Virus record (IMG/VR): IMGVR_UViG_3300006330_000002
Span: 1-37,415 of that record
Direction: 5' to 3' (one strand)
DNA: 37,415 nucleotides
Source of the DNA: a virus
Position numbers and translations under genes: made by a program. Positions 24,838 to 28,888 of this stretch are shown one piece after another. Each line of letters begins with the position of its first letter. Within the stretch, counting starts at the first letter, position 1. The notes beneath the pieces are model-generated. The model ran no database searches. It worked only from the letters and a program-made list of their open reading frames with translations, and was not told where the DNA came from.

Positions 24838-25052
24838 GTTCACCGCTTCGCTTCTACCGGCCGGCGGCCGGACGTCTCATCCGCGATCCGGATGACGGAC
24901 TGCCGCTGCCGGCCCACGGCAAGGGCATCGCCTGGTCCAGTTTCTGGCAGCGCCGCCTGGACGATGGCGACCTGGAGGAGACCACCCAGAAGGCCGTCGA
25001 GGCGGCCGAGAAGAAGGCCGTCGAAGGCGGCAGCGACAAGGGAGCCGAATGA
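24834..25052 (+). CDS. DUF2635 small tail protein (Mu gp38-like)
   Basis: A 72-residue protein of the DUF2635 family: YRPAAGRLIRDPDDGLPLPAHGK at 8-30 followed by W-x-R-RLDDGDL at about 38-47. It always sits just before the sheath gene in Mu-like phages. The C-terminus is a charged, Lys/Glu-rich tail. Overlaps both neighbours by four bases. Confidence 0.87.
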   Translation: MSSPLRFYRPAAGRLIRDPDDGLPLPAHGKGIAWSSFWQRRLDDGDLEETTQKAVEAAEKKAVEGGSDKGAE

Positions 25053-26482
25053 TGGCCAGCTTCGCATTCGACAGCATCAGCACGGGCCAGCGCGTGCCCG
25101 GCAGCCAGGTCGAGATCAGCAACGTCCGCGCGTTGCAGGGCCTGCCGCCGGCGGTGCAGAAGATCCTGCTGATCGGCCAGTGCATCGGCGCTGCATCGAC
25201 GTCCGCGCCCGTGCGCGTCACCCGCCGGGACCAAGGCGCCGCAATTGCGGGGCGTGGGTCCATCCTGGCGGCGATGGTCGCGGCCGCGATCGACGCCAGC
25301 AAGGAAGTCGAACTATGGGCGATGCCGATTGCCGACAATGCGGCCGGCGTGGCCGCGTCGGCGACCCTGACGATCACCGGCCCCGCGACCGCTTCGGGCA
25401 CGCTGTCGGCGATGATCGCCGGCGTGCGCGTCACGACCAGCGTCAACAGCGGACAGGTGGCGACGTCGATCGCGTCCAACCTGGCGGCGGCGATCAACGC
25501 CCTTCCCGACCTGCCGGTCACGGCGACGGCAGCGGCGGCGGTCGTCACGCTGACATGCCGGCACAAGGGTGCGGTCGGCAACGAGATCGACGTGCGCACC
25601 AATTATTTCGAGGGCGAAAAGCTGCCCGCTGGCGTCGCCGTGACGATCGTGGGCATGGCGGGCGGCACGGGCAATCCGGACCTGACCAGCCTGATGGCCA
25701 GCCTGGGCGACGCGCAATATCAGACCTTCGCCATCGGCATGAACGACGCGGCCAACATGTCGATCATCGACGATGATCTGACCGGCCGCTGGGGCCCGCA
25801 GCGCCAGATCGAGGGGCGCGCCTATTTCGGCATGATCGCCGGCTGGTCGACGCTCGCCAGTTTCGGCGCGACGCGCAACGGGGTGCACAGCACCATCGTC
25901 GGCGGCCATCGCGTCCCGTCGCCGCCCTGGGCGATCGCGGCCGCCTTTGCCGCGGTCGCGGCGTTCAACCTGCAGATCGATCCGGCGCGGCCGCTTACCG
26001 ACCTGGTCGTGCCGGGGATTCGCGCGCCCAGCGCCGAACATCGTTTCAGCCGGCAGGAGCGCGAGCTGCTGCTGCGCGACGGCATTTCGACGTTCCGCGT
26101 CAATGCCGCCGGGGACGTGGCGATCGAGCGGCTGATCAGCTGCTACCAGGTGAACAGCGCCGGCTTCGACGACATCAGCTATCTGGACGTCCAGACCACG
26201 GCGACGCTGGGCTATTATCGCTACAGCTATCGCCAGCGCATGGCGCAGAAATTCCCCCGCGCGAAGCTGACCGACGACACGATCGCGGCGGTGAAGGCCG
26301 AGACGATCGCGCTGGCGCGCGAGTGGGAGGATGCGGGCCTGATGGAGGATGTCGAGGGCTTCCTCGCCGGCCTCATCATCGAGCGCGACGGTTCCAGCCC
26401 GACCCAGCTCAACACGCTGATGACGCCCGACACCGTCAACGGGCTGCTGCAGCTCGCCACCCGCATCGAATTCATCCTCTGA
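25049..26482 (+). CDS. L: Tail sheath protein (Mu gpL-like)
   Basis: A 477-residue contractile tail sheath subunit. It opens with the typical SFDSISTGQRVPGSQVEISN (about 7-26), and the C-terminal part has LSCYQ-like strand RLISCYQVNSAGFDDISYLDVQTTATLGYYRYSYRQRM (about 362-399), the stretch that docks onto the tube and neighbouring sheath strands. Two adjacent ATGs (25049 and 25052) are possible; the second has better spacing from GGAG. Presence of a sheath shows a myovirus tail. No frameshift. Confidence 0.94.
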   Translation: MMASFAFDSISTGQRVPGSQVEISNVRALQGLPPAVQKILLIGQCIGAASTSAPVRVTRRDQGAAIAGRGSILAAMVAAAIDASKEVELWAMPIADNAAGVAASATLTITGPATASGTLSAMIAGVRVTTSVNSGQVATSIASNLAAAINALPDLPVTATAAAAVVTLTCRHKGAVGNEIDVRTNYFEGEKLPAGVAVTIVGMAGGTGNPDLTSLMASLGDAQYQTFAIGMNDAANMSIIDDDLTGRWGPQRQIEGRAYFGMIAGWSTLASFGATRNGVHSTIVGGHRVPSPPWAIAAAFAAVAAFNLQIDPARPLTDLVVPGIRAPSAEHRFSRQERELLLRDGISTFRVNAAGDVAIERLISCYQVNSAGFDDISYLDVQTTATLGYYRYSYRQRMAQKFPRAKLTDDTIAAVKAETIALAREWEDAGLMEDVEGFLAGLIIERDGSSPTQLNTLMTPDTVNGLLQLATRIEFIL

Positions 26483-26518: not shown

Positions 26519-26890
26519 ATGGCGAACAAGAACCAGGTCATCGGCCGCGCCAAGGTGAAGGTCGATGGCCAGCTGCTGGCGACCGCCGGCGACACCACGT
26601 TCGATCCGGGCGGCACCACCCGCGAACCCGTGCCGGGCGACTATGAGGCCGGGGCCTTTCGCGAAGCGGAACGCCGCCCGGCCAAGCTGGAGATCAGCCT
26701 GCTGACCAATGCCGGCTTTTCCGCGCCGGCGTGGGGCGCGATCGTCGAGTCCACCATCTCGATCGAGTTCGACAATGGCCAGGCCTGGGTGATGCGCGGC
26801 GCCTATTCCGAAGGCACGCCGTCGATCACGACCAGTGACGGCAAGGCCAAGGCCGTCGCCTACAGCCAGCCCGCCGAGCAGGTGTCGTGA
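26519..26890 (+). CDS. M: Tail tube protein (Mu gpM-like)
   Basis: A 123-residue tube subunit, in the expected place after the sheath. Family features: IGRAKVKVDGQLL at 8-20, GGTTREPVPGDYEAGAFREAERRPAKLEISLL (about 31-62) and a final beta hairpin YSEGTPSITTSDGKAKAVAYS. A good ribosome site (GAAAGGA) precedes the ATG, suiting a highly expressed protein. Stop overlaps the chaperone start at one base. Confidence 0.93.
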   Translation: MANKNQVIGRAKVKVDGQLLATAGDTTFDPGGTTREPVPGDYEAGAFREAERRPAKLEISLLTNAGFSAPAWGAIVESTISIEFDNGQAWVMRGAYSEGTPSITTSDGKAKAVAYSQPAEQVS

Positions 26891-27219
26891 TGGATCGCCG
26901 CGAACCGGGCAAGCGCCCCGCCTGGCTGAAGAGCGACAACAGCTATGACCTGCTGGTGCCCTTCGAATATGGCATCGGTCAGGATCGGTATGCCGTCGCC
27001 TCGCTGAAGCTGCGCCGTCTGACGGCCGCCGACATGCTGATCCTGGACGAAGCGATTCCCTACACCGAAAAGCTGCTGAAGATCGTCGAAGCGATGACGG
27101 GGCTGCTGCGCCCGGCAACGCTCAAGATCGACGCGGTCGACATGGACCGGATCGACGACATCCTGGGCTATTTCAGGGAGCCTGGTTCGGCAACTGGCGC
27201 GACCTCCTCGGCGAGCTGA
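26890..27219 (+). CDS. Tail assembly chaperone (Mu gp41-like)
   Basis: A 109-residue protein in the slot between tube and tape measure, where dsDNA phages encode the tail chaperone that coats the tape measure. Residues 20-85 (DLLVPFEYGIGQDRYAVASLKLRRLTAADMLILDEA, then LLKIVEAMTGL) match gp41/FluMu proteins: a short strand pair followed by a 'RRLTAAD' helix. The last 14 codons are Ser/Thr/Ala-rich and look like run-off after a missed frameshift. The ATG at 26890 overlaps the tube stop; a GTG one codon earlier is possible. Confidence 0.85.
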   Translation: MDRREPGKRPAWLKSDNSYDLLVPFEYGIGQDRYAVASLKLRRLTAADMLILDEAIPYTEKLLKIVEAMTGLLRPATLKIDAVDMDRIDDILGYFREPGSATGATSSAS

Positions 27220-27329
27220 AGCTCGTCCTGGGCTTCTCGCGCGCCGACATCTGGGCGCTCGACGATGCTGAATTGGAGTTCTGGCTGGACCAGGCGGACC
27301 GCATCGCGGCCGCCAGGGGGAATGAATGA
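27174..27329 (+). CDS. -1 frame extension of the tail chaperone (gp41-42 type)
   Basis: Reading one base back from the chaperone frame gives 51 codons from 27174 to the TGA at 27327-27329, with the conserved downstream chaperone pattern: a helix GNWRDLLGELKLVLGFSRADIWALDDAELEFWLDQADRI, where 'DIW-ALxxxELxxW' is typical. This frame is open back to a stop at 26946 and contains no ATG, GTG or TTG before the conserved part, so it can hardly be expressed alone. A plausible slip is tRNA-Phe from UUC to UUU in U-UUC-AGG (27171-27177), with the less-used Arg codon AGG in the A site. It overlaps the tape measure start by four bases. Confidence 0.78.
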   Translation, partial: QGAWFGNWRDLLGELKLVLGFSRADIWALDDAELEFWLDQADRIAAARGNE

Positions 27330-28888
27330 AGCTATCGCTGATCCTTGAGGCCATCGACCGGGCCAGCCGCCCGCTCGACCGGGTCGATCGCGCCACCGGA
27401 GGGCTGGGCCGCACGTCGCGTCGCGCAGCCGACGACGTTCGCGGGCTGGATCGGCGCATGGAAACGGCAACGCGCACGGCGGGGCGCATGGAGCGCGCCG
27501 CCCGTGGCGTCGGCTCCGGCTTGGCGGCAGCGTCCCGGCGCGGAGTCGGTGCGCTCGCCGCCCTCGACCGCCGCCTGAGCATCAGCCAGGCGCGCATGGA
27601 GAAGCTCGCATTTTCCGCTGGCACGCTGATCGGCAGCACCATTCGCGGCGGCGTGATCGCTGGAGGCGCTATCGCGGGCGCGGGGCTGTCGGCCGCGCTC
27701 TACAAGATCGTCACTGCTGGCCTGATGTTTGAAAAGTTCCGCACTCAGCTGACTGGACTGGAGGGATCGGCGGAGGCGGGCAACCGCGCTATGGAATGGG
27801 TGTCGGATTTCGCCGCTAAGACCCCCTATGAGCTGGCCGAGGTGATGGAAGCCTTCATCGCGTTGAAGGCCTATGGCATCGACCCGACCGACGGAACGCT
27901 GCGTGCGCTCGGAGACACGGCAGCAGGCATGGGCAAGGACCTCATGCAAGCGGTCGAAATGATCGCCGACGCCCAAACCGGTGAATTCGAGCGCATAAAG
28001 GAATTTGGGATCAAGGCTTCGGTCGCTGGGGACCAAGTCACCTTCCGCTGGCAGCGTAACGGCAAGGAAATGACGAAGACCGTGCGTCAGTCGGCCACCG
28101 AGATACGCAACGCCTTGCTTGCCATCATGGATCAGCGGTTTGCTGGGGGCATGGACCGTCTGGCGAGGACGACCGCAGGCAAGTGGTCGAACCTGATGGA
28201 TAGTCTGACCAAGTCCGCAAATCGCGTCTGGGAAGGCGGCTTCGGTAGTGCGGTCAATAAGCAGCTCGATCGCCTCAGTGGCTGGATAAGTCGAATGGAG
28301 CAGGATGGTTCGCTCAAAAAGTGGGCGGACGAAACCGGTGAGGGAATTGGCGACCTGGTGGAAACGCTTGGAGATGCCGACTGGTCAGGGATTGCAGGCG
28401 GGATTCGCAGCGTCGGCGGTGCCTTCAGCGACTTGGCAGGATTTCTTCGCGATGTTGATTATTACGGGGGCAAGGTGCGAGGCTTTCTCGCCGACGCCGA
28501 AAATCTTTGGGGATATCGCGATGCCTTGGGCAGCGTGAGTGCCGATCCGCGTGGCGGGCTTCATTATAACGCGCCGGGCTGGCTGAAAGCAAAGCCCGCA
28601 CCACGCAAGTCCGCACCATCGGGCGTGCCCTTCATCGGCGCAGCCGAACCGCAGACGCGTCCGTCTCCTCGGGCGGTGAGCGATGCGCAGTGGCGTCGCG
28701 CTCTGGGCGCTCCCCGAACACTGCCTACGCAGAAAGCAATCCCTGCCAAGCCTCAGGCCGCGCCGAAGGGCAAGCTGGAAATCTCGATCAAAACGCCCGT
28801 CGGCACAACAGCGCGCCCGACCAAGGTCGCCGCCACCGGTATGGACCTTGAAGTCAACACCGGCCGCGCCATGGGGGCGATCGCATGA
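27326..28888 (+). CDS. Tail tape measure protein
   Basis: A 520-residue protein that sets tail length. The N-terminus is a basic coiled coil (1-90). A hydrophobic Gly/Ala-rich segment at about 95-130 (GTLIGSTIRGGVIAGGAIAGAG) is of the kind that enters the host membrane. Residues about 140-310 form the tape-measure core (KFRTQLTGLEGSAEAG, PYELAEVMEAFIALKAYGID, GMGKDLMQAVEMIADAQTGEFERIKEFGI). The C-terminal third is Pro/Lys-rich. It is short for the family; by the usual rule of about 0.15 nm per residue the tail would be near 80 nm. From about 27700 to 28700 the DNA is less GC-biased than flanking genes. Confidence 0.9.
   Translation: MKLSLILEAIDRASRPLDRVDRATGGLGRTSRRAADDVRGLDRRMETATRTAGRMERAARGVGSGLAAASRRGVGALAALDRRLSISQARMEKLAFSAGTLIGSTIRGGVIAGGAIAGAGLSAALYKIVTAGLMFEKFRTQLTGLEGSAEAGNRAMEWVSDFAAKTPYELAEVMEAFIALKAYGIDPTDGTLRALGDTAAGMGKDLMQAVEMIADAQTGEFERIKEFGIKASVAGDQVTFRWQRNGKEMTKTVRQSATEIRNALLAIMDQRFAGGMDRLARTTAGKWSNLMDSLTKSANRVWEGGFGSAVNKQLDRLSGWISRMEQDGSLKKWADETGEGIGDLVETLGDADWSGIAGGIRSVGGAFSDLAGFLRDVDYYGGKVRGFLADAENLWGYRDALGSVSADPRGGLHYNAPGWLKAKPAPRKSAPSGVPFIGAAEPQTRPSPRAVSDAQWRRALGAPRTLPTQKAIPAKPQAAPKGKLEISIKTPVGTTARPTKVAATGMDLEVNTGRAMGAIA

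Follow-up and report, generated by a model that had tools for sequence, protein, structure and literature searches.

The tail assembly chaperone gene of the phage examined here very probably undergoes programmed -1 ribosomal frameshifting in the manner of E/E+E' in phage P2, and, as judged from comparison of related sequences, the ribosome would slip at U_UUC before AGG. The window, i.e., the whole stretch of DNA that was analyzed, is a virus record of 37,415 bases carrying Mu-like genes; the phage is Mu-like and comes from Sphingomonas-type bacteria. The comparison supports the homology, the frame relation, the place of the frame switch, and the conservation of the slip site.

Organization of the locus

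The tail module of the window runs in the order sheath, tube, chaperone, and tape measure (Table 1), the chaperone gene lying between the tube and tape measure genes as in P2 E/E+E'-type systems. The -1 frame stays open over 26949-27329, as a sequence-only reading of the locus had stated, and spans the gap between the chaperone and tape measure genes; the start of the latter overlaps the end of the extension (27326 vs 27329). Read on from UUC at 27172-27174, this frame gives QGAWFGNWRDLLGELKLVLGFSRADIWALDDAELEFWLDQADRIAAARGNE, and the reading frames yield a fusion of chaperone and extension of 146 aa. The long upstream opening is no evidence in itself, because in several sister phages this frame is interrupted by a stop 12 nt ahead of the Phe codon. 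The shift had been assigned as -1, unlike the -2 shift of Mu, and this stands: the conserved frame is -1, whereas the -2/+1 frame closes at 27325 and neither the -2 nor the +1 frame contains a conserved extension.

Table 1. Features of the tail module, in window coordinates
Feature	Position	Strand	Remarks
Sheath gene	25049-26482		First gene of the tail module
Tail tube protein gene	26519-26890	+	PF10618 (E=2.2e-21), phrog_185
Tail assembly chaperone, 0-frame product, 109 aa	26890-27219	+	Open frame; ATG at 26890, stop TGA at 27217-27219
20-nt block TATTTCAGGGAGCCTGGTTC	27169-27188	+	Invariant in six phages
Proposed slip site U_UUC (tRNA-Phe, UUC to UUU)	27171-27174	+	
-1 frame extension, 51 aa (QGAWFGNW...RGNE)	27174-27329	+	phrog_10636 (E=4.8e-6); stop at 27327-27329
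Rare 0-frame codon AGG (Arg)	27175-27177	+	Next codon decoded after UUC
Post-slip 0-frame tail, 14 codons and stop	27175-27219	+	0-frame pN/pS 0.93
Tape measure protein gene	27326-28888	+	PF20155 (E=2.6e-15), phrog_973

Homologs of the chaperone and its extension

Relatives were gathered using as queries the tube and fused proteins, a segment of the tape measure protein, and a DNA pattern. A profile search with the extension (cutoff 0.01) listed 46 loci, the four weakest matches being uncertain; in all 46 (the last four weak) the extension is offset by -1 from the open chaperone frame, and the 0-frame stop is mostly found 37 or 46 nt past one fixed column. PF10109 (Phage_TAC_7: E, or 41 or 14) was matched by 12 of 13 sampled chaperone homologs (best 7.5e-14), the match of the window chaperone alone being weak and below the cutoff (E=0.071). 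PF06528 (Phage_P2_GpE) was matched by four of 13 sampled extensions (best 3e-5), while the window extension itself had no Pfam match; the E' frame of P2 matches the extension profile with E=7.4e-9 in a nine-sequence search. The label 'gp42-like', previously attached to the extension, is therefore wrong: it resembles P2 E'/GpE, and Mu gp42 is the tape measure protein.

Other searches contributed little. Annotated phages searched directly with the chaperone gave no match, a first contig scan of genomes with the sheath revealed no relative, and a second DNA pattern search gave a single genuine locus, known before, besides five chance matches. No plasmid genes similar to this system and no convincing match among solved structures were found. 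In Burkholderia phage KS10 (L138, 25000-25603), the +1/-2 frame, close to where the chaperone ends, matches the extension profile marginally (4.0 bits); the KS10 paper reportedly describes no frameshift.

The metagenome-type source might suggest a sequencing error, or the decay of what used to be a single-frame gene. Such an explanation is barely conceivable, as the same arrangement recurs in many separate assemblies, including the isolate genomes of Sphingomonas sp. AR_OL41 and Sphingobium ummariense RL-3, and both parts are under purifying selection. The RL-3 genome contains two different Mu-like tail modules, one (L005/L019) with UUC AGG and the other (L025) with UUC UUG. Two further genomes (G466, with L026/L027, and G753, with L140/L141) each gave two matches of identical score on opposite strands, a pattern that a transposable phage might produce on replicating.

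Change of the selected frame

The clade of the window comprises seven phages (the window, L002, L005, L018, L039, L118, and L025). Ratios of pN/pS were calculated for the six close ones (all but L025) and for a second set of six sister phages. In the close set, the 0 frame is the constrained one upstream of the Phe column (0.64 vs 1.68 for the -1 frame), and from this column to the 0-frame stop the relation is reversed (0.93 vs 0.09), the counts being summed over all pairs of related sequences, so that these ratios are descriptive and involve no independent-sample test. The sister phages behave similarly in the overlap (1.19 for the 0 frame vs 0.44 for the -1 frame), and past the overlap the -1 frame of the window's clade has a ratio of 0.63. 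In both clades, UUC 27172-27174 is thus the codon at which purifying selection leaves the 0 frame for the -1 frame. The 0-frame values in the overlap imply that the 0-frame tail of the chaperone is without detectable amino-acid constraint, which bears out the earlier remark that the chaperone ends in 14 low-information codons. The -1-frame values agree with a second remark, that this frame continues as a conserved extension up to 27329.

The longest invariant run in the aligned region of the six close phages is the 20-nt block, which lies on the slip site (shuffle P ~5e-5); no other invariant run exceeds 9 nt. The block can largely be explained by double coding and is no proof of an RNA-level signal, because both frames are read there.

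The 0-frame stop shows a peculiarity of its own. In L005, L018, L039, L118, and the sister phages it is a TAG formed by the -1-frame Leu codon CTA, which is very rare in the window (4/8231 codons); this suggests selection for early termination in the 0 frame. In the window and L002, the stop occurs three codons later.

Proposed slip and its position

The majority of ribosomes would read the chaperone to 27219, yielding the short product, while a minority, with tRNA-Phe on UUC 27172-27174, would slip back by one base. The anticodon is predicted to re-pair with UUU at 27171-27173, after which the -1 frame (CAG GGA GCC TGG...) would be read to 27329, giving the 146-aa fusion with the predicted junction ...LGYFQGAWFGNWR; the junction peptide at the slip would contain GYFQGAWFGNWR. 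The slip would involve a single tRNA on a Z_ZZN tetramer and not a tandem pair, because the tRNA-Tyr on the preceding UAU codon is unable to re-pair with CUA. The rare 0-frame AGG, set against the common -1 competitor CAG, probably aids the slip. The mechanism with a single tRNA, the contribution of AGG, the slip rate, and what the two products do are inferred.

The simple slip U-UUC before AGG (27171-27177) had been singled out in the sequence-only reading, and comparison with relatives strengthens the choice: U_UUC is the only codon position able to re-pair at -1 that is common to all seven phages of the clade, so that conservation of the site, earlier named as a check, is found within the clade. 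The clade reads GGC UAU UUC AGG at this column, with GGA in place of GGC in L002, and L118 carries the 20-nt block of the window; L025, which lacks the AGG, reads GGU CAU UUC UUG. At the frame switch, the in-frame Z_ZZN motif of the window is U_UUC. L025 has a -1-frame stop 15 nt upstream; from there to the 0-frame stop, no Z_ZZN motif other than U_UUC occurs. No X_XXY_YYZ heptamer occurs in frame within the permitted interval of the window, as claimed before, or of L002, L005, L018, L039, and L025; no tandem heptamer fits the clade, since re-pairing at -1 is open to tRNA-Phe (UUC to UUU) but not to tRNA-Tyr or tRNA-His. The site had also been called unusual. This is correct insofar as a heptamer is absent, but Z_ZZN tetramers are a recognized class of -1 frameshift motif in E. 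coli, where U_UU.C, tested with a pseudoknot, is the second most shift-prone after A_AA.G (PMC4066793).

A -1 slip at another place, e.g., at G_GGC_TAT two codons upstream or still farther upstream, is quite improbable. Although G_GGC could re-pair in the window (L002 has G_GGA), this site is missing from L005, L018, L039, L118, and L025, and both the invariant block and the frame switch are located at U_UUC. Even less probable is that the extension constitutes a separate small protein, made by internal initiation or by re-initiation after the stop. Most sister phages (L004, L026, L034, L035, and L036), as well as L039 from the window's clade, do have a -1-frame GTG or ATG (ATG in L039) a few codons before the slip site. 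In the sister clade, however, these codons are a by-product of the conserved 0-frame residues L-D-E-C, no Shine-Dalgarno (SD) sequence better than random DNA accompanies them, and the phages with them carry the classic heptamer U_UUU_UUU. The -1 frame of the window has no ATG, GTG, or TTG before 27273, in line with the earlier statement that no start precedes the conserved part, and L002, L005, L018, L025, and L118 have no methionine or valine codon just upstream.

Diversity of slip sites

At the homologous column, relatives have tandem motifs in place of U_UUC: U_UUU_UUU in six sister phages, U_UUU_UUG in L053, L054, L064, L099, L105, Bordetella phage PBb001, and P2, and G_GGU_UUU in L022 and apparently, judging from its two reading frames, in L140. 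The seven T of sister phages would permit a frame change by transcriptional slippage at a homopolymer run, but with only three T in a row at the site in the window's clade this possibility is close to negligible. More distant loci have their motif farther upstream (C_CCU_UUG, G_GGA_AAC or G_GGA_AAG, or G_GGG_GAG). Seven loci (L010, L062, L069, L084, L090, L100, and L111) read CTG GGG GAG (or GAA) where their relatives read CTG GGA AAC/AAG, and G_GGG in these chaperones is an apparent second kind of single-tRNA site at a heptamer column.

The tree built from the fused proteins places the U_UUC phages on a single branch (91/81), nested in a group (100/100) that includes the U_UUU_UUU phages as well. 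The tetramer was probably derived from a heptamer, since U_UUU_UUG occupies this column in relatives outside the group. Sites of the G_GGA_AAC/AAG and G_GGG_GAG types are intermixed on the tree, and a similar exchange between tandem and single-tRNA sites is suggested there.

Codon usage and possible stimulators

AGG is rare in the window genes, as noted earlier (19/8231 codons, or 2.3 per thousand), and in two sampled host genomes (4.3 and 1.9 per thousand), while its -1 rival CAG is common (35 per thousand in the window; 38 and 30 in the host samples). Stimulation of the slip by a rare Arg codon is thus plausible. The slow AGG is the best candidate stimulator, yet it is partly dictated by the -1 frame, in which CAG GGA is read over it, and it is absent in L025. 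That the slip rate is governed by AGG and not by RNA structure, in which case the chaperone ratio would follow the host supply of AGG-reading tRNA-Arg, is a doubtful proposition; if true, it would constitute a heptamer-free and structure-free frameshift in a structural phage gene, driven by codon supply.

Somewhat more credible, but still on the unlikely side, is that the slip occurs as proposed with a conserved RNA structure as the main stimulator and AGG as incidental. The region is GC-rich with a stable fold (-31 kcal/mol over 70 nt), and in E. coli, tetramers without a stimulator barely shift (~0.15%) and need a strong one (PMC4066793). However, the z-scores of the window (-1.4 and -1.7) are not significant, the fold is not common to all members, the covariation term downstream of the slip site is only -0.4, and P2 E+E' has also been reported without a hairpin (PMC3091744). 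Rfam gave nothing real at the locus, and no SD-like stimulator better than random DNA was detected upstream of the slip. Directly past the slip codon, AGGGAG (27175-27180) resembles the SD sequence of the sheath gene, AAGGGAG; L025 does not have it.

Implications

Searches for tail-chaperone frameshifts based on seven-base sites would miss cases such as that of the window. One homologous frame change is served by tandem motifs (U_UUU_UUU, U_UUU_UUG, C_CCU_UUG, G_GGA_AAC/G_GGA_AAG, and G_GGU_UUU) as well as by the single-tRNA sites U_UUC and, apparently, G_GGG. From the distribution of the motifs, tandem and single-tRNA sites seem to have replaced one another repeatedly, with the frame relation being kept. 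The natural phage pairs offer a means of testing whether a second slipping tRNA and a slow next codon are needed.

Comparison with known systems

The closest counterpart is E/E+E' of P2 (Peduovirus), in which the chaperone is likewise followed by a -1-frame extension directly before the tape measure gene. The P2 ribosome slips by -1 at TTTTTTG, giving products of 91 and 142 aa (PMC3091744), similar in size to those of 109 and 146 aa in the window; the P2 site, annotated in NC_001895, reads GGT TTT TTG. On the sequence evidence, the -1 frameshift in the tail chaperone of the window is of the P2 kind but has a different slip site; it is classified as a variant and not as an identical system because C_UAU_UUC_AGG stands in place of the canonical heptamer U_UUU_UUG.

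Mu gp41 has the same gene order (sheath, tube, chaperone, and tape measure), but its shift is -2 (annotated as verified in AF083977 and cited in PMC5009743), and its extension is not recognizably related to that of the window. A further likeness is that, judging from the two frames of its record, the apparent slip in Mu is at one glycine codon, GGG, followed by the Arg codon CGA. The G/GT system of lambda follows the same logic, as a short and an extended chaperone are made from one start; there, the short form is the one that binds the tape measure protein, and recruitment of tube subunits is added by the long form (PMC5009743). By analogy with lambda and P2, the short form in the window may coat or bind the tape measure protein, and the long form may also recruit tail tube subunits. 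U_UU.C is also shared with the Z_ZZN sites of IS1/IS3 elements, where U_UU.[U,C] are among the predominating tetramers (PMC4066793), although those sites drive transposase fusions and not tail chaperones. Whereas the E. coli tetramers were stimulated by a pseudoknot in the assays, no structural or SD-like stimulator was found in the window, where the candidate is the rare AGG that follows the slip codon.
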